Shown here: piece by piece, positions 2-31,060 of the stretch
Numbering within the stretch: the first letter of the stretch is position 1
Layout: each line of letters opens with the position of its first letter
NCBI GenBank assembly: GCA_903901425.1
Contig: CAIURC010000194.1
Location: 1 to 35,340 of the forward strand
DNA: 35,340 nt
Direction of reading: 5' to 3'
Source: an uncultured Spartobacteria bacterium
GTDB taxonomy: Bacteria; Verrucomicrobiota; Verrucomicrobiia; Chthoniobacterales; Chthoniobacteraceae
Made by a program: the position numbers and the translations under genes
The notes under the pieces: model-generated
Told to the model about the DNA's origin: nothing
What the model saw: only the letters and a program-made list of their open reading frames with translations
Database searches by the model: none

Positions 2-835
2 ACCGTGGGCAATATCTCCTACGGCGCAAAGCGGTTGGAACGCGAACTCGCCAAGGCGCGCCAGGACGGCGACCACGAGGCCGCCAAGCGGCTCCGGGAC
101 AAGGTTCTCTCCCGGCGTCATAGCCTTCCAAAATTCATGCAGACGTTCAAACAGACCATCACCCAGGATTACAATCGGCTCCACGGCCGGGAGGGCACCC
201 TCTGGGGCGGGCGCTACCGGAGCGTGCTGGTGGAGAACACCGAGGAGGCGTTGGCGCGGGTGGCAGCCTATGTGGACCTGAACCCGGTCCGGGCTGGGAT
301 GGTGGACGACCCGGGGGACTACCAGTGGTCGGGGTACGGGGAGGCGATGCGCGGGGGGGCGCGGGCTTTGGAGGGATTGAAGAAGATCGTGATGGAGTGC
401 TTGGATTCGCCCAAGCTCGGGGAGACGCCCGAACAGGAGAAGACCCGGGTGCTGGAGCGGTACCGGGTGTATTTGTTTGAGAAAGGGGAGGCGAGGCAAG
501 CGTCGGAGGACGGGACTGGAGGGCGGTTGGGGATTGATCCGGACCGGGTGGAGGAAGTGCTTCGGACGGGAGGCAAGCTGAGTCCGTTTGAGGCAGTGCG
601 CTGCCGGAACCGGTATTTTACGGAGGGGGATGCTGTGGGGAGCGAGGAATTTGTGGAGGGAGTGTTTGAGAGGTACCGGGGGCAGTTTGGAGTCCGGCGG
701 AAGAAAGGTGCGCGCGAGCCGGTTGGGATGGATCTGCCTGGGATTGCGGTGCTTGGGCCGGTGCGGAAACCGGCGATCACGGTTTCCGAGAGGTTTTCCC
801 GTAAAGAGGATCGGACAGAGCACCGGAAAGAGTAA
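2..835 (+). CDS. REP-associated tyrosine transposase, 5' partial
   Basis: Single-strand DNA transposase of the Y1/HUH superfamily, RAYT group (COG1943-like). The reading frame is open to the window edge, so the N-terminal part with the HUH metal-binding motif lies outside; the GTG at 5 is probably internal. Visible family marks are a basic helix (KRLERELAKA), then FKQTITQDYNRLHG with the likely catalytic Tyr, GTLWGGRYRSVLVE, and AAYVDLNPVRAGMV followed by DYQWSGYGEA. The C-terminal part (CRNRYFTEG, GSEEFVEGVFE, RRKKGAREP) matches the long RAYT subgroup that carries an extra C-terminal region. RAYTs are normally single-copy, domesticated enzymes thought to spread short REP-like repeats, and a repeat cluster lies about 260 bases downstream. 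Identification is strong; activity cannot be judged without the N-terminus. Confidence 0.88.
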   Translation, partial: TVGNISYGAKRLERELAKARQDGDHEAAKRLRDKVLSRRHSLPKFMQTFKQTITQDYNRLHGREGTLWGGRYRSVLVENTEEALARVAAYVDLNPVRAGMVDDPGDYQWSGYGEAMRGGARALEGLKKIVMECLDSPKLGETPEQEKTRVLERYRVYLFEKGEARQASEDGTGGRLGIDPDRVEEVLRTGGKLSPFEAVRCRNRYFTEGDAVGSEEFVEGVFERYRGQFGVRRKKGAREPVGMDLPGIAVLGPVRKPAITVSERFSRKEDRTEHRKE

Positions 836-896
836 ACCGGCGTCCGCTGGTTGAAGGAAAAGCCGCAAAAAAGCCGCTAAGTCGGTAACAGCGGTA

Positions 897-937
897 GCAG
901 CACAAAGAGGCGAACCGGGTTCGCCTTTTTGTGCTGC
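897..937. terminator. Long hairpin after the transposase, likely terminator
   Basis: Two 20-base arms (897-916 and 918-937) are reverse complements with one G-T wobble and one central base. The distal arm contains TTTTT (926-930). It begins 61 bases after the transposase stop. It could be a bidirectional terminator or a structured element recognised by the transposase. The palindrome is directly visible; the role is inferred. Confidence 0.6.
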
Positions 938-1099
938 CCGGATTCCGGCTGGAGCGCGGCAGGCGGCAGGTCGGGGCGCCGTTTTTCCCCGTTTTTTCCG
1001 CATATTCGCGCGAGACACCGCTCGGACGGACCATTCGCCGCCGCCAGAGCGGCGAAAAACGCGCCAAAAAGACGCTCTCCCAGTTCCACGGTTCACAAT

Positions 1100-1421
1100 C
1101 CGAGGTCTGTCCCCTGAAAATCCCATTTTTGGGGCCTTCCCGGAAAATCCGTGGTCTGGCCCCAGCAAAAACCGAGGTCTGTCCCCGGTTGGCGGGTTGC
1201 TCCGTGGTCTGTCCCCAAAGGTGCGTTCCGTGGTCTGTCCCCGGTTGACGGGTTTGCTCCGTGGTCTGTCCCCAAAGGTGCAAAGAAGGTGCGTTTTTTG
1301 TGCGGAAATCTGAGGTGTGTCCCCAAGGTGCGGGGCTGAAGCTGTGGTCTGTCCCCCAAAAGTGACCCGAGGTCGGAGCGCTGTGGTCTGTCCCTGTTTT
1401 TGGGGTGCTTGAGGTGTCCCC
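1100..1421 (+). repeat. Cluster of GTGGTCTGTCCCC-type short repeats
   Basis: About ten direct copies of a 13-14 base motif occur in one orientation: near 1100-1114, 1151-1163, 1173-1186, 1203-1216, 1229-1242, 1260-1273, 1311-1324, 1343-1356, 1382-1394 and a degenerate one at 1410-1421. The variable position is mainly the third base (GTGG versus GAGG), and the TCTGTCCCC core is most conserved. Spacing is irregular, about 20-60 bases, with flanks such as AAAGGTGC and GGTTG. Proximity to a RAYT suggests a REP-like family mobilised by it. It is not a CRISPR array because spacers are irregular and repeats are too short. Confidence 0.8.
1173..1281 (+). repeat. ~57-base tandem duplication inside the repeat cluster
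   Basis: The block 1173-1228 (two motif copies separated by GGTTGGCGGGTTGCTC and followed by AAAGGTGC) recurs at 1229-1281 with a one-base insertion and a few substitutions. This is a recent duplication of a two-motif unit and suggests the cluster grows partly by local duplication. Confidence 0.75.
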
Positions 1422-1443: not shown

Positions 1444-3015
1444 GTGAAAACCTCCTCCCCCTCTGTGTGCGCGGTTTTTTTTGCCGCGGTTTTAGAGTTC
1501 TGCGCGGACGCGGGCGACTGGCCGCAATGGCGGGGTCCGCAGAGGAACGGGGTCGCTGAGGGGGGCGTGCCGCTTCTGGACAGAGTGCCGTCTGAGGGCC
1601 TCAAGGAGCTTTGGGAAAGCGAGGGGGTTCCGGCCAATGATGAGGGCGGACTTTCCAGCCCGGTGACCGTCGGGGACCGCGTGTATCTGTCTCTTGTTTG
1701 GCATCGGGATTTGCCGTCGGAAACGCGCCAGATTGGCGAATTGGTGCTGCGGCAGATTGGGCACCAGTCGACAAAGGCGCTCGGACCAGAGTTGGTGAAA
1801 AAGTTGGAAGAAACGCGGTCAGGTCTGTCCCCAACGTTGCGCGGATCCAAGCTGGACGAGTTCAGCCGGAAATGGGTGGAGGAGAACTTGGATGCGAAGC
1901 AGAAGCAGCTTTACAGCGGGTTTGTGCTCAACCGCTTCAAAAAGGGTTCGCTGGCAATCCCTTTAGAGGTCCTGGATACGCTGGACCGGAACAAGGACAC
2001 CGTTTTTCCCAGCGATGCGGCCATGCGGGGCTGGCTTGAATTCCAAGGGTGGCCGGAGCGGGTCCGGGAGGAGATCGCGGCAGCAGTTCCGCCCACGCGC
2101 CGGGTAGCCGAGGACGTGATTCTCTGTTTGAGCCTGCGGGATGGTAAAACGCTGTGGAAAGCGTCGGCTGCGGGTGCGCCGCTCGGGCGTACCGCCTCCT
2201 CCACCCCTTGTGTGGTCGGCAACCGTGTGTACGCGCTGGGCAGCACCCGGCTCTGGTGCGTGGACGCGGAGACTGGAGCGATGCTGTGGGAGCGGCCTGT
2301 TGTGCAGAAGCGTGCTCAAGGCACCTCACCCTTGTTGGTGGATGGTGTGGTTGTGATTAACTCCGAGGTTTTGAAGGGGTTTGCTGCCGAGGACGGTCGG
2401 GAACTTTGGAGCCAGGTCAGGGCCGGGGGCGGAAGTTCTTCGCCGGTGACGTGGACTGCCGGTGGGCAATCTTTTGTGTTGTGCAACGGGGCGGGCACTC
2501 TGGATGCAGTAGACCCACGTACGGGGGAGTTGCGATGGAGTATTCCGGGCGGGGGGGACTCGACTCCTGCGGTCTCAGGGGAGTGGTTGGCGGTGCAGGT
2601 GCGCAAGCCCCAGACAGGTCTAGCGGTGTTCCATTTGAAGCCGGATGGAGCAGAGCGGGTCTGGACCCACACGGTGGATGCCCTCAGGACTCAGTCGAGT
2701 CCGGTGGTTGCGGATGGAGTGGTGTACCTCATGGACGATAACGTTCATTTTGCGTTCGAATTGGAATCCGGGAAGATGCTCTGGCGGGAGGGGGCGCAGT
2801 CCACGATCGCGTCGCCCGTCCTTGCAGACGGCAAGCTGTTTGCGATGGCCAACAACGGGAACACGCTCCTTGTGCTCAAAGCCGGGCGCGAATCGAGGGA
2901 GGAGTTGGGCCGTGCAACGGTCCGTGCGCAATGGGTTCCTTCCCCGTGCATCGCCGGAGACCGGCTGGTGTTGCGGATGAAGGACCGGTTGAAATGCTGG
3001 TCGCTGGCGCCGTGA
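1444..3015 (+). CDS. Secreted PQQ-like beta-propeller repeat protein
   Basis: 523 residues. The GTG start at 1444 follows a purine-rich GGGGTGGGGA, and an in-frame TAG at 1432 rules out an earlier start. An apparent signal peptide (about residues 1-23, ending ADA) precedes DWPQWRG, the usual opening of Verrucomicrobia/Planctomycete PQQ-propeller proteins. Propeller blades recur from about residue 220 onward (GKTLW, GAMLWER, GRELW, GELRWSIPGG, GKMLWREG), resembling BamB/quinoprotein dehydrogenase folds; no haem motif is present. Between the first blade and the rest (about residues 90-215) lies a charged, probably helical insertion. A copy of the upstream short repeat sits in frame at 1821-1832. 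Ligand and enzymatic activity are unknown; it may be a non-enzymatic scaffold. Confidence 0.85.
   Translation: MKTSSPSVCAVFFAAVLEFCADAGDWPQWRGPQRNGVAEGGVPLLDRVPSEGLKELWESEGVPANDEGGLSSPVTVGDRVYLSLVWHRDLPSETRQIGELVLRQIGHQSTKALGPELVKKLEETRSGLSPTLRGSKLDEFSRKWVEENLDAKQKQLYSGFVLNRFKKGSLAIPLEVLDTLDRNKDTVFPSDAAMRGWLEFQGWPERVREEIAAAVPPTRRVAEDVILCLSLRDGKTLWKASAAGAPLGRTASSTPCVVGNRVYALGSTRLWCVDAETGAMLWERPVVQKRAQGTSPLLVDGVVVINSEVLKGFAAEDGRELWSQVRAGGGSSSPVTWTAGGQSFVLCNGAGTLDAVDPRTGELRWSIPGGGDSTPAVSGEWLAVQVRKPQTGLAVFHLKPDGAERVWTHTVDALRTQSSPVVADGVVYLMDDNVHFAFELESGKMLWREGAQSTIASPVLADGKLFAMANNGNTLLVLKAGRESREELGRATVRAQWVPSPCIAGDRLVLRMKDRLKCWSLAP
1821..1832 (+). repeat. Copy of the short repeat inside the PQQ gene
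   Basis: AGGTCTGTCCCC matches the core of the cluster 400 bases upstream. It is in frame and encodes part of the helical insertion (GLSP). It may be a coincidence or an inserted repeat copy. Confidence 0.45.
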
Positions 3016-3064
3016 ACAAACAATTGGCCTCAAGCCAACGACGGTGTGCGGACCGGTGTCACCC

Positions 3065-4165
3065 ATGAGCCGGGTGATTCTCCATGTCGACATGGACGCG
3101 TTTTTTGCGTCGGTCGAGCAACGGGACCACCCGGAGTATCGGGGTCTGCCGGTGATCGTCGGGTCAGCCTCAGACGCCCGTGGAGTGGTGTGCGCCGCGA
3201 GTTACGAGGCGCGCCAGTTCAAGGTCCGGTCTGCCATGCCTTCCCGCACCGCCGCCCGGCTGTGTCCCTGCGGGATTTTTGTCCGGCCGCGGATGGAGGC
3301 ATACCGGGAGGAGTCGCGACGGATCATGCAGATCCTGGCGGAAGTCAGTCCGGTGCTGGAGAAAGTGTCTGTGGACGAGGCGTATCTGGACGTCAGCGCG
3401 TTGGTGGGAGGCGGGAAGGATCCAGATGCTGCGGTGCAGGCAGCCTATCCGCTGGCTGTGGCGATCAAGGATAGGATCCGTGCGGAACGGAATTTGACGG
3501 CATCGGTGGGCGTGGCTTCGAACAAGTTTCTGGCAAAACTGGGGAGCGATTTCAAAAAGCCAGATGGACTCACCGTGGTTCCGGAACGCGAAAAGGTCGG
3601 GTTCCTGCGGCCGCTGCCTGTGGCAGCCATTCACGGGGTAGGACCGGTGACCGCCGAGCTTTTGAGCGGCATGGGCATTCACACAATTGGGGATCTGCAG
3701 GACTGGCGGGGCAATTTGGAGCCGGTGCTTGGGAGTTTTGCGAGGAAATTGCGGGAACGCGCTCTTGGTGAGGATGACCGGCCGGTGGATCCGAGTGACG
3801 AGCGCAAGAGCATTGGTGCCGAGACCACGTTCGCCCGAAACACCGAGGAACGCCCGGTGCTGCGTGCTGCACTCAGGGAACTGGCGGCTGACGTGGCGGG
3901 AAGTCTGGACCGGCACGGACAAGAGGCGCACACGGTGCAGGTGAAGGTCCGGTACGGGGATTTCCGGACGTTGACCCGGCAGATTCGGTTGGAGAAGTCG
4001 GTGTGCAAGGAGCGCGACCTGTACCGGGTGGCGTGTTACCTTTTGGCGCGGGATCGTCTGGTGACGGAACCGCTCCGACTGCTCGGCATCTCGGTGTCGA
4101 ACTTGGTGGAAGGCAACGCTTCAACCCAGTTGTGGTTGGATCTTTGTGGCCCCGGGCCGGGCTGA
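3065..4165 (+). CDS. dinB: DNA polymerase IV (Y-family translesion polymerase)
   Basis: 366 residues from the ATG at 3065, chosen because MSRVILHVDMDAFF matches the family N-terminus; a GTG at 3044 would add seven atypical residues. The catalytic acidic residues are visible: D9 in HVDMD and D104-E105 in SVDEAYLD, with F14 at the steric-gate position. SVGVASNKFLAKLGSDFKKP and the helix-hairpin-helix stretch (IHGVGPVTAELL) follow, then the little-finger domain (SIGAETTF). The C-terminus carries QLWLDL (355-360), a beta-clamp binding motif. The polymerase synthesises across damaged bases at stalled forks in the cytoplasm. It starts 49 bases after the PQQ gene and ends 44 bases before the oxygenase gene. 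No LexA-type operator was recognised. Confidence 0.96.
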   Translation: MSRVILHVDMDAFFASVEQRDHPEYRGLPVIVGSASDARGVVCAASYEARQFKVRSAMPSRTAARLCPCGIFVRPRMEAYREESRRIMQILAEVSPVLEKVSVDEAYLDVSALVGGGKDPDAAVQAAYPLAVAIKDRIRAERNLTASVGVASNKFLAKLGSDFKKPDGLTVVPEREKVGFLRPLPVAAIHGVGPVTAELLSGMGIHTIGDLQDWRGNLEPVLGSFARKLRERALGEDDRPVDPSDERKSIGAETTFARNTEERPVLRAALRELAADVAGSLDRHGQEAHTVQVKVRYGDFRTLTRQIRLEKSVCKERDLYRVACYLLARDRLVTEPLRLLGISVSNLVEGNASTQLWLDLCGPGPG

Positions 4166-4209
4166 AACGGAGGCAGAGGTTGAGCGGGCGGAGTCGGAAT
4201 GTTAGGTCG

Positions 4210-6495
4210 ATGGGCGTGAACCTCGAAAAAGCTGCGGAATGGCGGGAATGTTTTCGGGAGCTTGACCGGGAAGACCGGTTTTGCGCGCAGGGATTCCTGC
4301 CCCCGGTGCTTCCAGGCATTGAGGTGGAAGGCGTGGGGCCCGTTGGGTTGCCGCTGGTTTCAATTCAAGCTGCCCAGATCGCTGCGGTGGCGCGGCGTGC
4401 GCCATTCGGGAAGGGCGAGGAGACGCTCGTGGATCCAGAGGTCCGGAACACTTGGGAGGTCGATGCGAGTCGAGTGCGGTTGAAGAACCCGGTATGGGAC
4501 AAGTTGCTGGAGGAAGCGTTGCGGACGGTTGCGGAGGAATTGGGGGTGAGCAACGGCCGCCTTGTGCCGCACCTCTACAAACTGCTGTTGTATGAGAGGG
4601 GCGGCTTTTTTGTGGCACACAAGGACTCGGAAAAGTTGCCTGGGATGGTGGCCTCGCTGCTGGTGTATCTGCCGTCGGCGCATTCTGGGGGCGCCTTGGA
4701 GGTGCGGCAGGGAACCCGGCGGATGGTGGTCGATTCGAGTGTCGAGAAGGCTCTCTACCAGCCGATGTGGGCTGCGTTTTATGCGGACTGCGAACACGAG
4801 GTGAAGCCGGTGGAGAGCGGTTGGCGGCTGTGTTTGGCATACAACCTGGTGTTGGAGGGCGGGGATTTGGAGGAGAAGGGAGCGGCTGCGGGGGCCGCGG
4901 GAAAGATGCGGACGCTGCTGCGGGACTGGGCTGCCTCGGAGAACCCCGGGAAACTCGTGTTTGGTCTTGAACACTGCTACTCGCCCGACGGCATTCAACG
5001 GAATCAGCTGAAAGGAGCCGACCGTGGGCGGGTGGAGGCGCTGATGGCATTTGCCAGCGAACTGCAGCTTGAAATCAGCATCGGGATTTTTGGGTATCAC
5101 GAATCATGGACGGCTGCCTGTGAGGGGTGGGAATGGGGCCGGTCCAGTTCCCGAAGGCGGTCGAGATTCCGGGACAATTCCCCGAAACCCGTCTCCCGGT
5201 CTGCAAAGGTTCAGGAAGAGGATTTTGACGAATCGCAGTGTGTTTTTGAAGTCGACGAATTGATCGATTCGTCGGTGTTTTTGGAGTCGCTCCGCGGTCT
5301 TGGCAGGTCTTGGGAGATGAAGCGTGTGACGATTTCCGAGGAGGAAGTTGTTTTGTTGGGAGCGCTGAAGGGAGTTCAACCCGAGGAGGAGTACGAAGGG
5401 TACACCGGCAATGCGGGAGAAATGGTGGAACGTTGGTACCGGCATGCCGCCGTGGTTCTCTGGCCCCGGCGCAACCATTTTGATGAGCTCAAACAGAGTT
5501 CGCCGGAAGGCGTGTGGAACACGCTGGCAGACTGGATGGAGCAAGGAACCATCGCGCGCTCGGAGGCCTTGGCGACCGCCCAAGGCCTCTTGGAAGAACT
5601 CCAAAGAGGTTCTTCTTGGGAAGTATATGAGGTGGCGGGAAATGCGGCGGCATCGCTGGTACGCCTTGGGGATGAGCGTTTGCTCTGCGATTTCGTTCAG
5701 ATCGTGGCAACCACCAGTTCCGGCAGGAACTGGGTGGAGCCCCTGCAGGAAGCCCCTTTGCCGCTTTTGAAGTCGTTCCTGCCGGTGTGCAGCGCGCTTT
5801 TTGAATCTTCAGAGAACCGGATGGCTGGGGAGTTGTTTGACCTCTTGGAGGCTGGATGGATTCGCATGAGGGATGCCGCGTTGCTCAAGCGCACCCTTCA
5901 GGCCTGCGTTTCCGGGGTGAAGGGGTTGGATGTGGCGGACGCTTTCCGTCGCCTTCTCTCCGGAGCCGTGCTCTTGGAGCATGCAGATTTGCTTGGTGTG
6001 GCGATTGCGGGTGTGGAGCGGGCGAACCTGCCTCTGAAGGGGGGTCGCACCGGAATTGTTTCCGGGCTTTTGGAGGCTTGTTCCGGGAAAAAGAAGTTGC
6101 AAAAGCTGGCTGTGAAGTTTCTTGAAAAGACCCTCGCTGAGTTGGAACCGCTCCGTGAGAAACCCATGCCGTACGCTGACCTGAGCCGGCCTGCGGAGTT
6201 TTCTTGCGGCAAGGCCGGGTGCGCTCCCTGCCGGAAACTGAAAGGGTTTCTGGAGCATCCGGGCCTTGAACAGGATCGTTTTTGCGGCCCCCTGAGCGAA
6301 CGCAAGCATGTGATCCAGACCGTTCAGGAGCATTTGCTGGACATCGACATTGAGGTGGACCGATCCCAGTCTCCGCACAGTCTCCGGCTCAGCAAGAACG
6401 CGGGATCCCATGCCCGGCGTGTGGAGCAGTGGAAGTCTGACCTTGTCTTGCTTGGAAGTTTGGAGGCTCTGTTGGCCCGGAACAAGCGGGAGTGA
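4210..6495 (+). CDS. 2-oxoglutarate/Fe(II) oxygenase-like protein with long C-terminal extension
   Basis: 761 residues from the ATG at 4210, just after dinB; the open frame extends into dinB but that part is not credible protein. The N-terminal third is a prolyl-4-hydroxylase-type double-stranded beta-helix: HKD gives H137 and D139, EHEV gives H196, and R206 in GWRLCLAYNL would bind 2-oxoglutarate. The facial triad is therefore intact. Residues about 220-650 are mostly helical with no recognised domain. Near the C-terminus four cysteines (C666, C671, C674, C692) could form a zinc site. No signal peptide is seen, so it is probably cytoplasmic. The family usually runs 200-300 residues, so this protein is unusually long. 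The substrate is unknown; protein hydroxylation is possible, and the dinB neighbourhood does not prove a repair role. Confidence 0.8.
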   Translation: MGVNLEKAAEWRECFRELDREDRFCAQGFLPPVLPGIEVEGVGPVGLPLVSIQAAQIAAVARRAPFGKGEETLVDPEVRNTWEVDASRVRLKNPVWDKLLEEALRTVAEELGVSNGRLVPHLYKLLLYERGGFFVAHKDSEKLPGMVASLLVYLPSAHSGGALEVRQGTRRMVVDSSVEKALYQPMWAAFYADCEHEVKPVESGWRLCLAYNLVLEGGDLEEKGAAAGAAGKMRTLLRDWAASENPGKLVFGLEHCYSPDGIQRNQLKGADRGRVEALMAFASELQLEISIGIFGYHESWTAACEGWEWGRSSSRRRSRFRDNSPKPVSRSAKVQEEDFDESQCVFEVDELIDSSVFLESLRGLGRSWEMKRVTISEEEVVLLGALKGVQPEEEYEGYTGNAGEMVERWYRHAAVVLWPRRNHFDELKQSSPEGVWNTLADWMEQGTIARSEALATAQGLLEELQRGSSWEVYEVAGNAAASLVRLGDERLLCDFVQIVATTSSGRNWVEPLQEAPLPLLKSFLPVCSALFESSENRMAGELFDLLEAGWIRMRDAALLKRTLQACVSGVKGLDVADAFRRLLSGAVLLEHADLLGVAIAGVERANLPLKGGRTGIVSGLLEACSGKKKLQKLAVKFLEKTLAELEPLREKPMPYADLSRPAEFSCGKAGCAPCRKLKGFLEHPGLEQDRFCGPLSERKHVIQTVQEHLLDIDIEVDRSQSPHSLRLSKNAGSHARRVEQWKSDLVLLGSLEALLARNKRE

Positions 6496-28227: not shown

Positions 28228-31060
28228 AAGCGGTTTCATTGGAACAGAGGAGCATTTGGCAGAACGCGGTGAGGGTTTTGAGGTCCGGCTTTGGGCCGAG
28301 AGCCTGACGTGCAAGGCCGATTTCGTGGGTGCCGGGAGCGCGCTGGAGGAGTCGGCGCCAGAGCCAGTGGGCGATGGGATCCGGTGCGCTGAGACCTTGG
28401 CTGAATGCAAGCGTGGCAATCGCCTCGGCCTGAGCAAGCGGGAAGGGATGGTTCAACAGGAAGAGGGATTGAGGCGCCACGGTGGCTTCACCTCGCTTTT
28501 CCACGATTCCGGTGGGATCAGCGCCGTCAAAGAGAGCTTGGAAATTGGAGCGGTCGCTCCGGATGGTTTGAAGGTAGAGTGTGCGGCGGGGGGAATCGAG
28601 ATGGGGAGTGGCCTGTCCTCCCACCGTCGAGTCGAGCTTTTCGGCGAAACGGAGCAGGGAATCGCGGAGTTCCTCGGCGGTGAGGCGTCGCCGTTTCTGG
28701 TGGGAAAAAAATCGGTTGTCCGGATCCTTTTCACGGGCGTTCCCGGAGGGGAGGGTGCTGCGCTGATAGGCGGCCGAGTGAACGATGAGCCGGTGGAGGT
28801 CTTTGATGCGCCAGCCCGTCTGGATGAAGTATCCGGCCAGCCAGTCGAGCAGTTCCGGGTGCGTGGGCGGGGTACCCAGTTTTCCAAAGTTGTTCGGGGT
28901 GCGAACAATCCCATCTCCGAAGTGGTGTTGCCAGACCCGGTTGACCAAGACGCGTGCTGTGAGGGGATTCTCGGGGCTGGCGATCCAACGAGCTAATTCC
29001 AGGCGGCCGCTGGCAGTGGTTCCAAGGGTGGGCTGCTGCTTGCAAAGGAGTGCGGGGAACCCGCGGGGAACGACCTCGCCGAGGGTGTCGTAGCGGCCTC
29101 GCTTGTGGACCGGTGCATCGTGAAAGCCCGCGTAACGCGTCATCGGAATTCCGCCCTCCCGCAGGCCTTGTGTGAAGCGGAATTGTTCCAGCTCGGAGGC
29201 CGCTTTCTGGCGGGCGGCGGTGAGAGCCTTGCCTTCTGGAGTGTCCTTTCCGAGCGAGGGGCCTTCGCCCGCGCAAATCCACCACAGATCATCTTTTCCT
29301 TGTTTCGCGCCGTGCACCAGTGCTTGGGCCACATCCCAAGTTTGGCCGCCGGCATCCCGAATGCGGAGGTCCACCTGGGTCATGTCGCAGGTGTACTCGG
29401 CGCGGGGCCGGATGATGAGCTGGAGCAATTGTCCTTTCTGGATCTCGGTGGAAAATTCCTGCACTTCGGAAGTGGTGGCGTTGTTCATGACGCCAGACCG
29501 GAGGATTTTCTCCCCCAGCTTGAGGATCCATGCGATCCCATCACCGCAGTTGGGATCGGCGTCTTTGAGTTCGAATTCACACCGAATCGTGCCGTTCACG
29601 GGACTGCGCCAGTTGAGCGATGCGGGAACCTTGGATCCGGGGTGCACGGCGATGGACTGGGCGGGAAGCCTCCACGTGCTCAGCGCGACGGGAGCCGCGC
29701 TGGCATTGATCAATACGGCGGGGAGTGCGGCTCCGGTTCCTTTCCAGGACGAGAGCCCGGCATGGCCTCCGAGGTCGGGTTCGACCACGGTGAGGGGCTC
29801 GAGTTTTTCGGCGAGACGCCCGTCGATTTCGCGAATCCGTTCGCGGGCAAGATTGAGACGTTGTTCCTCCTCCCCACTGACGATGGGCAGGCGCATGAGC
29901 TTTTCGCCTGCGCCTTTGGCCTGAAACTTTTCGAGGATGGAGCTGCTGAAAAAAATTCCGGCGAGTGCGTAGTAGTCTCGGGTGGTCAGGGGATCGAACT
30001 TGTGGTCGTGACACCGGGCGCAGCTCATGGTGAGACCCAAAAAGGCGCGGCTGGTCAGGTCGACCTGGTCGTCGACAATGTCAGTGTGGACTTTTTCTTT
30101 GTCGGCGTCTCCGTTGCCCCAACTGCCAATGGCGTAGACGCTGGTGGCGACCAGTTTCTGCGGGTCCCACTCGTTTTTGGCGAGGATGTCTCCTGCGATC
30201 TGATGGCTGATGAACTGGTCGTAGGGAAGGTCCGTGTTGAACGCGTTCACGACCCAGTCGCGGTAGCGCCAGGCGTCTAGAATGTCGCCGTCTTTGCCGG
30301 CGATGCGGGAGTCGAGGGAATCCGCGTAGCGGACGACATCGAGCCAGTGCCTGCCCCATTTGACTCCGTACTGGGGGGAGGCAAGGAGCCGCTCGACGAC
30401 TTTGGAAAAGGCCTCCGGAGAGGAGTCTGCAAGGAAGGCATCGACGTCTTCTGGAGAGGGAGGAAGTCCGGTGAGATCGTAGGAGAGGCGGCGGAGAAGG
30501 GAGCGCTTGTCTGCGGTTGGGGCCGGAGACAGGCCTTCGGACTGGAGGCGTTGGTGGAGGAGAGCATCGATGTGAGCAGCGGCTTCCGCTGGCTTGGCGG
30601 TAGACGAGGTTTTTGGGAGGGGCTGAAAAGCCCACCAGGATTGGGCATCCTCGGCGTTCATGCCGGCGATCTTTGCGGAGGCAACGCGGGGGTCCGGTGC
30701 GCCCATGCGAACCCATTTTTCGAGGAGGGCAATTTTGGCATCCGGAAGTTTGCCGCCGCTCTTTTTGGGCGGCATGGCGGAGTCTTCGTCTTGGTATCGG
30801 ACAGCTTCGATGAGGAGGCTTTTTTCGGGGTCGCCGGGGAGGACAGCGGGTCCTGAGTCGCCGCCTTTTTGCCAACCATTTTTGGAATCGAGCGCGAGGC
30901 CGCCCTTGGTTTTTGCGCCGCTGTGGCAGTCGAAACAGTGCTCGACGAGAATGGGGCGGATCTGGGATTCGAAGAAGGCGAAGTCCTCGGTGGCGGCGGC
31001 TCCGGGGGCGAGTGTGGCCAGAAGGGTGAGGAATGAAAGGGCTTTGTTGGAGGGGTGCAT
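28217..31060 (-). CDS. PSCyt1-PSCyt2-PSD1 cytochrome, tandem copy A
   Basis: 947 residues with a signal peptide (about 1-23, ending AAA). PSCyt1 haem site CFDCH (C42, C45, H46), then AMPPKKSGGKL. DUF1549: SWWAFQPLP, AHIDALLHQRLQSEG, LLRRLSYDLTGLPPSPEDVDAFL, RHWLDVVRYAD, LPYDQFISHQIAGDI, with the second haem site in CARCHDHKFDP. A central beta-sandwich-like part (about 430-600) may bind a ligand. DUF1553: LARWIASPENPLTARVLVNRVWQ, FGKLGTPPTHPELLDWLAGYF, DPDNRFFSHQKRRRL. Its first ~250 codons are nearly identical in DNA to those of copy B at 32517-35340, while the middle and end differ. It lies 48 bases downstream of the copy B DUF1501 gene. Confidence 0.95.
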   Translation of the reverse strand: MHPSNKALSFLTLLATLAPGAAATEDFAFFESQIRPILVEHCFDCHSGAKTKGGLALDSKNGWQKGGDSGPAVLPGDPEKSLLIEAVRYQDEDSAMPPKKSGGKLPDAKIALLEKWVRMGAPDPRVASAKIAGMNAEDAQSWWAFQPLPKTSSTAKPAEAAAHIDALLHQRLQSEGLSPAPTADKRSLLRRLSYDLTGLPPSPEDVDAFLADSSPEAFSKVVERLLASPQYGVKWGRHWLDVVRYADSLDSRIAGKDGDILDAWRYRDWVVNAFNTDLPYDQFISHQIAGDILAKNEWDPQKLVATSVYAIGSWGNGDADKEKVHTDIVDDQVDLTSRAFLGLTMSCARCHDHKFDPLTTRDYYALAGIFFSSSILEKFQAKGAGEKLMRLPIVSGEEEQRLNLARERIREIDGRLAEKLEPLTVVEPDLGGHAGLSSWKGTGAALPAVLINASAAPVALSTWRLPAQSIAVHPGSKVPASLNWRSPVNGTIRCEFELKDADPNCGDGIAWILKLGEKILRSGVMNNATTSEVQEFSTEIQKGQLLQLIIRPRAEYTCDMTQVDLRIRDAGGQTWDVAQALVHGAKQGKDDLWWICAGEGPSLGKDTPEGKALTAARQKAASELEQFRFTQGLREGGIPMTRYAGFHDAPVHKRGRYDTLGEVVPRGFPALLCKQQPTLGTTASGRLELARWIASPENPLTARVLVNRVWQHHFGDGIVRTPNNFGKLGTPPTHPELLDWLAGYFIQTGWRIKDLHRLIVHSAAYQRSTLPSGNAREKDPDNRFFSHQKRRRLTAEELRDSLLRFAEKLDSTVGGQATPHLDSPRRTLYLQTIRSDRSNFQALFDGADPTGIVEKRGEATVAPQSLFLLNHPFPLAQAEAIATLAFSQGLSAPDPIAHWLWRRLLQRAPGTHEIGLARQALGPKPDLKTLTAFCQMLLCSNETAYVD
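30321..30953. repeat. Near-identical PSD1 5' segment, copy A
   Basis: It aligns without gaps to 34708-35340 at a constant offset of 4387 bases. By hand count I find roughly 35 differences in 633 bases, about 95% identity. It covers haem site 1 through the WLDVVRYAD segment of DUF1549. Similarity drops sharply at 30321. The right end is cut by the window, so the repeat may be longer. Confidence 0.85.

Follow-up and report, generated by a model that had tools for sequence, protein, structure and literature searches.

What are the short direct repeats that follow a truncated transposase gene at the start of contig CAIURC010000194.1 of an uncultured Spartobacteria bacterium (GCA_903901425.1), and do they belong to that transposase? 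The window, i.e. the whole stretch of 35,340 nucleotides (nt) analyzed here from base 1 of this contig (C194), opens with the end of a RAYT-type (REP-associated tyrosine transposase; REP, repetitive extragenic palindrome) HuH/Y1 gene, behind which copies of a 13-nt motif are clustered. Judged by comparison of sequences, this array probably consists of terminal recognition sequences of the neighboring transposase, a TIRYT-like enzyme with the features of TnpAY1 subclass 2.3, which would read them as sequence and without a hairpin.

Array and RAYT genes in the host genome

In total, 12 matches to GTGGTCTGTCCCC were found in the window (pattern GWGGTCTGTCCCC, up to two mismatches, both strands), compared with a mean of 1.36 and a maximum of 5 in 100 shuffles, which rules out a chance cluster. 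Nine of the 12 are co-directional and lie at 1102-1395, the first of them 266 nt past the RAYT stop; six start with GTGG and three with GAGG. The matches at 28608 and 31623 do not exceed chance expectation. Together with a degenerate tenth copy (Table 1), this bears out the original prediction of about ten short direct copies some 260 bases after a RAYT gene, all in one direction and clustered. A 57-bp tandem duplication with two motif copies per unit indicates that a few of the copies arose by local duplication, and the spacers of the copies outside it differ from one another. An open reading frame (ORF) spans the copy at 1102 in antisense orientation to the RAYT gene.

RAYT copies and fragments in the host genome (G000; a 5.10-Mb assembly of 224 contigs) were located by protein search, the distant Y1 genes at C196, C124, and C82 being excluded from the count of 3′ ends. 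All eight 3′ ends of the window RAYT type (C194, C5 twice, C28 end, C171 end, C12, C2, and C78) are accompanied by at least three same-strand motif copies within 900 nt, with 35 copies on the gene strand and three on the other. C12, whose own protein match is weak, was counted on the strength of 90% identity with the C171 end over 445 bp, and the diverged C78 copy (69% protein identity) carries AGTGTCTGTCCCC instead. When up to one mismatch was allowed, the genome as a whole gave 66 matches against 19 for the reversed control, so that the proposed genome-wide enrichment was found; 46 of the 66, as counted from the listing, are grouped in eleven clusters. Fourteen of the 26 exact copies lie outside ORFs of at least 150 amino acids (aa), which cover 0.88 of the sequence (P 3e-7). 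Some clusters lie in stretches in which no RAYT was read, namely at C107:44287-44481, as pairs at 111.5 and 115.1 kb of C28, and at the C171 start (L036:1-235). The last of these begins inside an apparently interrupted IS4-like transposase ORF (family assigned by eye), a second copy of which was sought in the host genome and not found.

The ends of contigs C194, C28, C171, C12, C2, and C78 fall within RAYT copies and their arrays or next to them. The repeats thus probably break the assembly, and copy number is probably underestimated.

Features of the transposase

The window ORF is cut at the contig start, so that the 5′ end of the gene and the HuH-bearing N-terminus lie beyond the window. The fragment is 81-82% identical to a complete 354-aa copy in the same genome (G000:C5:95324), in which HuH is found at 61 and the tyrosine at 175, a distance of 114. 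This complete copy matches Pfam Y1_Tnp with 24.7 bits (cut-off 23) and NCBIfam REP_Tyr_transpos with 53 bits, below the cut-off of 80; the fragment alone matched no Pfam family, and the NCBIfam IS200 profile stayed below its cut-off in four proteins. Complete relatives are 332-394 aa long (a further list of relatives was restricted beforehand to 300-400 aa), and the HuH-Y distance is 112-115 in the Chromatiaceae proteins. A short, mostly Comamonadaceae type, with a HuH-Y distance of 60 where both motifs are readable, forms a separate clade (support 1.0). For the relative L081 (346 aa), a structure model (mean pLDDT 85, pTM 0.86) found its best solved fold in TnpAREP 4er8 (TMt 0.75, 12% identity), followed by the TnpA proteins of IS608 and ISDra2, and its C-terminal part (about residues 200-340) had no convincing solved-structure match among the best 50 matches.

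According to the available part of PMC6006769 (the citations of this paper and of PMC3733652 and PMC8266576 refer throughout to the parts available), subclass 2.3 has a HuH-Y distance of ~110 and a median length of 325 aa, whereas the distance is 58-67 in most subclasses, 88 in 2.4, and 82 in 2.6. With a distance of 114 and a length of 354 aa, the window-type protein thus has features of subclass 2.3, a putative assignment based on motif spacing and length.

Core, tag, and orientation across the family

Orientation was examined in a set of 110 loci, 30 from the sample of related genomes described below (three of them from the host genome) and 80 named; 87 loci had a usable start and 104 a stop, and two duplicates (L081 and L086) were kept. 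CTGTCCC was found upstream 71 times on the minus and eight times on the plus strand, and downstream 48 times on the plus and 15 times on the minus strand, while the reversed control CCCTGTC gave 2 minus and 5 plus upstream and 4 plus and 7 minus downstream. The CCC end of the motif is thus mostly directed away from the gene. The core reads YCTGTCCC in Verrucomicrobiota and Desulfoluna and GGTGTCC[CT] in Chromatiaceae, with [CG]TGTCC[CT] as the joint form. Five homologues (L085, L097, L111, L120, and L128) have CTGTCAC upstream in place of CTGTCCC, and the core itself may therefore drift.

The 8 nt before the core, here called the tag, are alike within a locus and differ between loci (identity 0.62 vs. 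0.34, 34 loci), and label shuffling gave a within-locus mean of 0.36 and a maximum of 0.44. Tag similarity also tracks protein similarity (Mantel r 0.23, p 0.0002, 39 loci), whereas the 3′ tail hardly does so (r 0.08, p 0.06); the distal 5′ flank does so weakly (r 0.14, p 0.009), which means that common descent contributes to the correlation. The duplicates were dropped from both tag analyses, and the Mantel analysis also left out L144-L160 and proteins below 180 aa.

In the short-protein clade a related core, CTGACCC, was found, in some copies within a palindrome. The short RAYT genes L144 and L158-L160 (from a Cytophagales metagenome-assembled genome and Comamonadaceae) are flanked by near-palindromes such as TTTAATTGGGATCTGACCCCAATTAAA. 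They represent a hairpin form with a related core and are possibly an intermediate between REP and the window motif.

Dispersal in related genomes

Among 57 genomes (the host and 56 others), GTGGTCTGTCCCC, the GTGG form, has 18 exact copies in the host and at most one in any of the 56 relatives. RAYT homologues were identified in 16 of the 57, the host included. A tag motif of another group, AARTGYCTGTCCC, occurs 126 times in G020, 43 in G012, 40 in G003, 13 in G024, and 6 in G002, five of the 16 homologue-bearing genomes, and its reversed control gave 0 in G020. Two of the 41 genomes with no homologue at the cut-off also have it, G032 (10 copies, with a RAYT remnant near one of them) and G034 (26 copies); all other counts are 3 or fewer. 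Its information-rich unit spans ~18-20 nt, AAAGTGTCTGTCCCCTGCG. In 12 sampled stretches of G020, 60 of 67 copies lie outside ORFs of at least 150 aa, which cover 67% of the sequence (binomial P 4e-22). Flanks of G020, G034, G032, G003, G089, G062, G057, and G058 were taken around matches and are non-random samples. The reversed AARTGYCTGTCCC control was found 17 times in G004, which belongs to the same family as the host, against two or fewer in every other genome of the 57, so an unrelated repeat family may exist in G004.

A second search covered 57 genomes of the family of Marichromatium gracile, the Chromatiaceae, of which 39 had matches at E 1e-12 or better, short types included. From among the matches listed, 33 gene stretches were read and 25 were kept, eight rows being duplicates or partial genes; many of those kept are paralogues from two genomes. 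In 23 of the 25 loci GGACA lies 74-81 nt before the start codon (two control windows, 3 and 2), followed by TTGAC in 20 (controls 2 and 1). For these upstream counts L081, L086, and loci with less than 330 nt upstream were dropped. Most Chromatiaceae loci have an upstream copy only. With one mismatch, TAARTGGGTGTCCC was found 41 times in G089 (control 1), all on one 3.78-Mb contig, and 26 times in G062 (control 1); eight other genomes had 0-4 (controls 0-4). AAAGAGCCTGTCCC with one mismatch occurs 59 times in Desulfoluna spongiiphila (control 3) and 22 times in D. limicola (control 4), and 2, 1, 0, and 0 times in four other genomes (controls 0, 1, 1, and 0). All five complete RAYT genes examined in D. 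spongiiphila (L289-L292 and L294) lie between inverted copies, the downstream copy of L294 being altered in one base.

Hairpin tests

The original prediction had called for a test of hairpins around the copies, and none beyond controls was detected. Folding of 40 loci gave a median z of 0.26, with a slight excess in stem length (3.73 vs. 3.42, 26 of 1000 permutations). The mean best stem was 3.73 for 67 copies of G020 and 3.50 for 40 copies of the host genome, compared with 3.78 and 3.59 for swapped flanks, and the nine window copies folded alone ranged from z -1.99 to 1.73. Hairpin REP elements were thus rejected as the identity of the motif, the slight stem excess notwithstanding.

Junctions at the motif edge

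In eight of nine genome sets, pairs of copies with a homologous flank on one side only mostly share the tag side, the homology stopping at the CCC end. The numbers of such pairs (tag side:CCC side) were 16:6 in the host genome, 3:0 in G001, 5:1 in G002, 10:3 in G003, 1:0 in G038, 3:0 in G012, 6:0 in Desulfoluna, and 328:5 in Chromatiaceae. Three further host pairs are homologous on both sides; with a stricter motif the host gave 16:3 and none on both sides, the counts of the two runs differing because pattern and flank definition differ. The motif thus behaves as one terminus of mobile DNA.

Individual loci illustrate this. The window copy at 1151 and its counterpart on C28 match over the 30 nt before the copy and diverge at CCCC, and at the copy at 1102 an 11-nt difference from C28 begins exactly after CCCC, beyond which the match resumes. 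Across 16 RAYT copies of G089 and G062, the sequence on the gene side of the motif is for the most part conserved (majority base 0.5-1.0, mostly >0.8), whereas that beyond the motif is unrelated save for a short A-rich end; solo motif copies join unrelated DNA. In one comparison the matched segments (58, 76, 258, 312, and 981 bp) all start within 3 nt of the motif edge, the longest reaching the end of the stretch. An orthologous locus carries a single copy in G089 and two direct copies, at a distance of 110 bp, in G062, with 92-96% identity in the right flank and a poorer alignment in the left one. One gene, identified by eye as LysE-like, is continuous in G089 and broken off in G062 beside motif copies, and homology resumes at a motif. 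A search for empty sites in Desulfoluna matched the right flank and left the left flank unmatched.

Proposed mechanism and alternatives

Outward bias, tag, and the stop of homology at the CCC edge are consistent with the joining of DNA at this edge by a HuH enzyme. Each copy has a nearly invariant core preceded by a 5′ tag that varies, and the transposase would recognize it by its sequence and not by a hairpin. The enzyme would join or copy DNA at the CCC/GGG boundary, so that the tag side travels and the other side is the target, with 5′-GGGACA as the leading end, and arrays would grow by repeated one-ended insertion or duplication beside an existing end. Cutting by the window-type protein, the exact site and strand of the cut, a covalent link, and the one-ended chemistry are predicted here from sequence comparison. 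In a bolder form, which we put forward tentatively and hold to be possible rather than probable, subclass 2.3 RAYT-like transposases would run a hairpin-free one-ended system in which a terminus 5′-GGGACA-core-tag is nicked and then travels in front as the 5′ end, with variability at the other end and no strict need for a second terminus; new copies would insert or be duplicated beside existing termini, direct arrays would record repeated events, and the tag would be each transposase's own address.

Several results weigh against the reading of the copies as transposase termini. The junctions of G020 show no asymmetry (10:11; 2:6 with the stricter motif), and the junction pairs and many loci are paralogues and therefore non-independent. 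Within-locus likeness extends into the flanks (3′ 0.53 vs. 0.27, distal 5′ 0.37 vs. 0.28), in part a result of local duplication. Opposite-strand copies are present at C12 (two) and C2 (one). An inverted upstream partner was not seen in the window clade; the only upstream copy at the complete gene of C5:95324 is a degenerate GCGGTCTGCCCC on the same strand, ~150 nt away. The distant RAYT-like gene of the host at C196 has no such array, only one opposite-strand ATGCCTGTCCCC within the gene stretch and scattered CTGACCC. In G034 (88% complete) the 26 AARTGYCTGTCCC copies are dispersed and no RAYT was found; they may represent a relic population or reflect an assembly gap. When ORFs of at least 80 aa are considered, 40 of the 67 G020 copies lie inside (cover 0.87, P 5e-8), and 64 of 99 over all 20 stretches (cover 0.85). 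Among long-type loci outside Chromatiaceae, GGGACA was found at -135 to -35 in only 25 of 62 (control windows 10 and 4).

We consider it improbable that the motif serves primarily as an operator or promoter, with RAYT transcription controlled through it by the RAYT or by a host factor and mobility being incidental. The placement of GGACA before the start codon in Chromatiaceae, with the -35-like TTGAC behind it, speaks for such a role, but a simple pattern found a -10 box at the usual spacing in only one of the 25 loci, the window array lies downstream of its gene and past a terminator-like hairpin, copies are dispersed far from RAYT genes, and the edge of the motif is where homology is lost. 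Control may also be exerted through a terminal sequence, which makes the operator and terminus readings compatible. Decay of ordinary REP or REPIN elements, with a GT[AG]G foot and a hairpin, is very unlikely: the fold tests on the 40 loci, G020, the host genome, and the window copies, and the tags of other loci, which lack GT[AG]G while the core persists, outweigh the homology of the protein to RAYTs, the fit of L081 to TnpAREP, the agreement of GTGG in six of nine window copies with the published foot (PMC6006769), and the slight stem excess. The least credible alternative is a passive tandem repeat, grown by slippage or recombination and unlinked to the transposase. The 57-bp duplication is of this kind, and the 11-nt difference between the window and C28 resembles its neighbor, but the spacers of the remaining copies differ, and like cores with outward bias are found beside homologous genes in different phyla.

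With the array read as transposase termini, the outward core and its locus-specific tag provide a concrete candidate substrate for subclass 2.3 enzymes, and our results suggest that target repeats do exist for a subclass that had been taken to lack them. A route to hairpin-free arrays is suggested by the one-sided junctions, and the reading could also account for contig breaks and short direct repeats in genomes of this kind.

Other features of the window

The features read from the window are collected in Table 1. A hairpin similar to the likely terminator is readable by eye 3′ of the stop at other RAYT copies.

Table 1. Positions of the transposase gene, the motif copies, and neighboring features in the window.
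Feature	Position	Strand	Basis
RAYT-type HuH/Y1 transposase, C-terminal 277 aa, Y in YVDLNPVRAG	2..835	+	ORF, homology to complete copy
Likely intrinsic terminator between gene and array, GGCGAACC/GGGTTCGCC followed by T run	909..930	+	read from sequence
Motif copy 1, GAGGTCTGTCCCC	1102..1114	+	pattern search
Motif copy 2, GTGGTCTGGCCCC	1151..1163	+	pattern search
57-bp tandem duplication, 1.9 copies	1172..1281	+	TRF
Motif copy 3, GAGGTCTGTCCCC	1174..1186	+	pattern search
Motif copy 4, GTGGTCTGTCCCC	1204..1216	+	pattern search
Motif copy 5, GTGGTCTGTCCCC	1230..1242	+	pattern search
Motif copy 6, GTGGTCTGTCCCC	1261..1273	+	pattern search
Motif copy 7, GAGGTGTGTCCCC	1312..1324	+	pattern search
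Motif copy 8, GTGGTCTGTCCCC	1344..1356	+	pattern search
Motif copy 9, GTGGTCTGTCCCT	1383..1395	+	pattern search
Degenerate tenth copy, GAGGTGTCCCC	1411..1421	+	by eye, outside shuffle statistics
Isolated copy, CAGGTCTGTCCCC, in PQQ-like beta-propeller ORF 1444-3015	1820..1832	+	single match, could be chance
Y-family DNA polymerase gene (IMS)	3044..4165		
Next, overlapping ORF, 830 aa, 2OG-Fe(II) oxygenase domain	4003..6495		listed ORF

Comparison with known systems

The closest published systems are TIRYT genes, which are flanked by terminal repeats, many with GGGGWSAS, and include some moderately abundant families, dimers, and clusters (Di Nocera et al. 2013, PMC3733652). In the open-access literature searched, the terms TIRYT and TIRtron were found only in that paper and in PMC6006769. 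The present system resembles them in combining a RAYT-like HuH/Y1 gene (HuH being seen in the complete sister copy and in relatives) with short repeats, in that GGGGACAG, the reverse complement of CTGTCCCC, fits GGGGWSAS (PMC3733652), and in the Desulfoluna cassettes with true inverted copies. It differs in that copies are often one-sided and in direct arrays; set beside the available part of PMC3733652, the division into tag and core and the one-sided junction are observations of the present analysis. The original prediction of a different class of RAYT substrate therefore stands in part. A non-hairpin, one-way sequence is tied to the RAYT by the 3′ ends and the enrichment in the host genome, with a like core in other phyla, and is a putative substrate; it does not make up a wholly new class, as the GGGGWSAS terminal repeats of TIRYTs are known.

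The 26 published TIRYTs fall into subclasses 2.1 (20), 2.2 (4), and 2.5 (2), with none in 2.3 (PMC6006769). Subclass 2.1, whose enzymes are relatives of those of 2.3, had been linked to terminal repeats only tentatively. As far as the available part of PMC6006769 goes, neither automatic nor manual search found REP-like sequences for subclasses 2.1 and 2.3, and subclass 2.3 prevails in Chromatiales, in many copies and with no REP-like flank. The proteins studied here are like subclass 2.3 in a HuH-Y distance of ~110, a length of ~325-355 aa, and several copies per genome in Chromatiales; they differ in that GGACA stands at a set distance from the start of nearly all Chromatiaceae loci, yet no REP-like sequence has been reported for the subclass. 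A search of the open-access literature, with most subscription papers outside it, showed no description of such a motif with subclass 2.3 among the matches listed, and a search by the motif letters gave only unrelated titles among the matches listed.

REP and REPIN sequences with hairpin-binding RAYTs are short, intergenic, dispersed sequences cognate to a RAYT (PMC8266576). The motif described here is also short, dispersed, and tied to a RAYT, but has no hairpin beyond controls, occurs in direct arrays, and starts with GTGG in some copies only. IS200/IS605 elements are characterized by subterminal hairpins and a short TnpA, and the TnpA proteins of IS608 and ISDra2 share the HuH/Y1 fold; no motif hairpin was found here, and the 354-aa protein is ~2-2.5 times as long as the TnpA chains of 125-165 residues. 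IS91, ISCR, and other one-ended rolling-circle elements have one defined end and a variable other end. The array beside the window RAYT would resemble IS91 and ISCR in these ends, although their HuH transposases are different ones and the one-ended reading is here predicted from sequence comparison.
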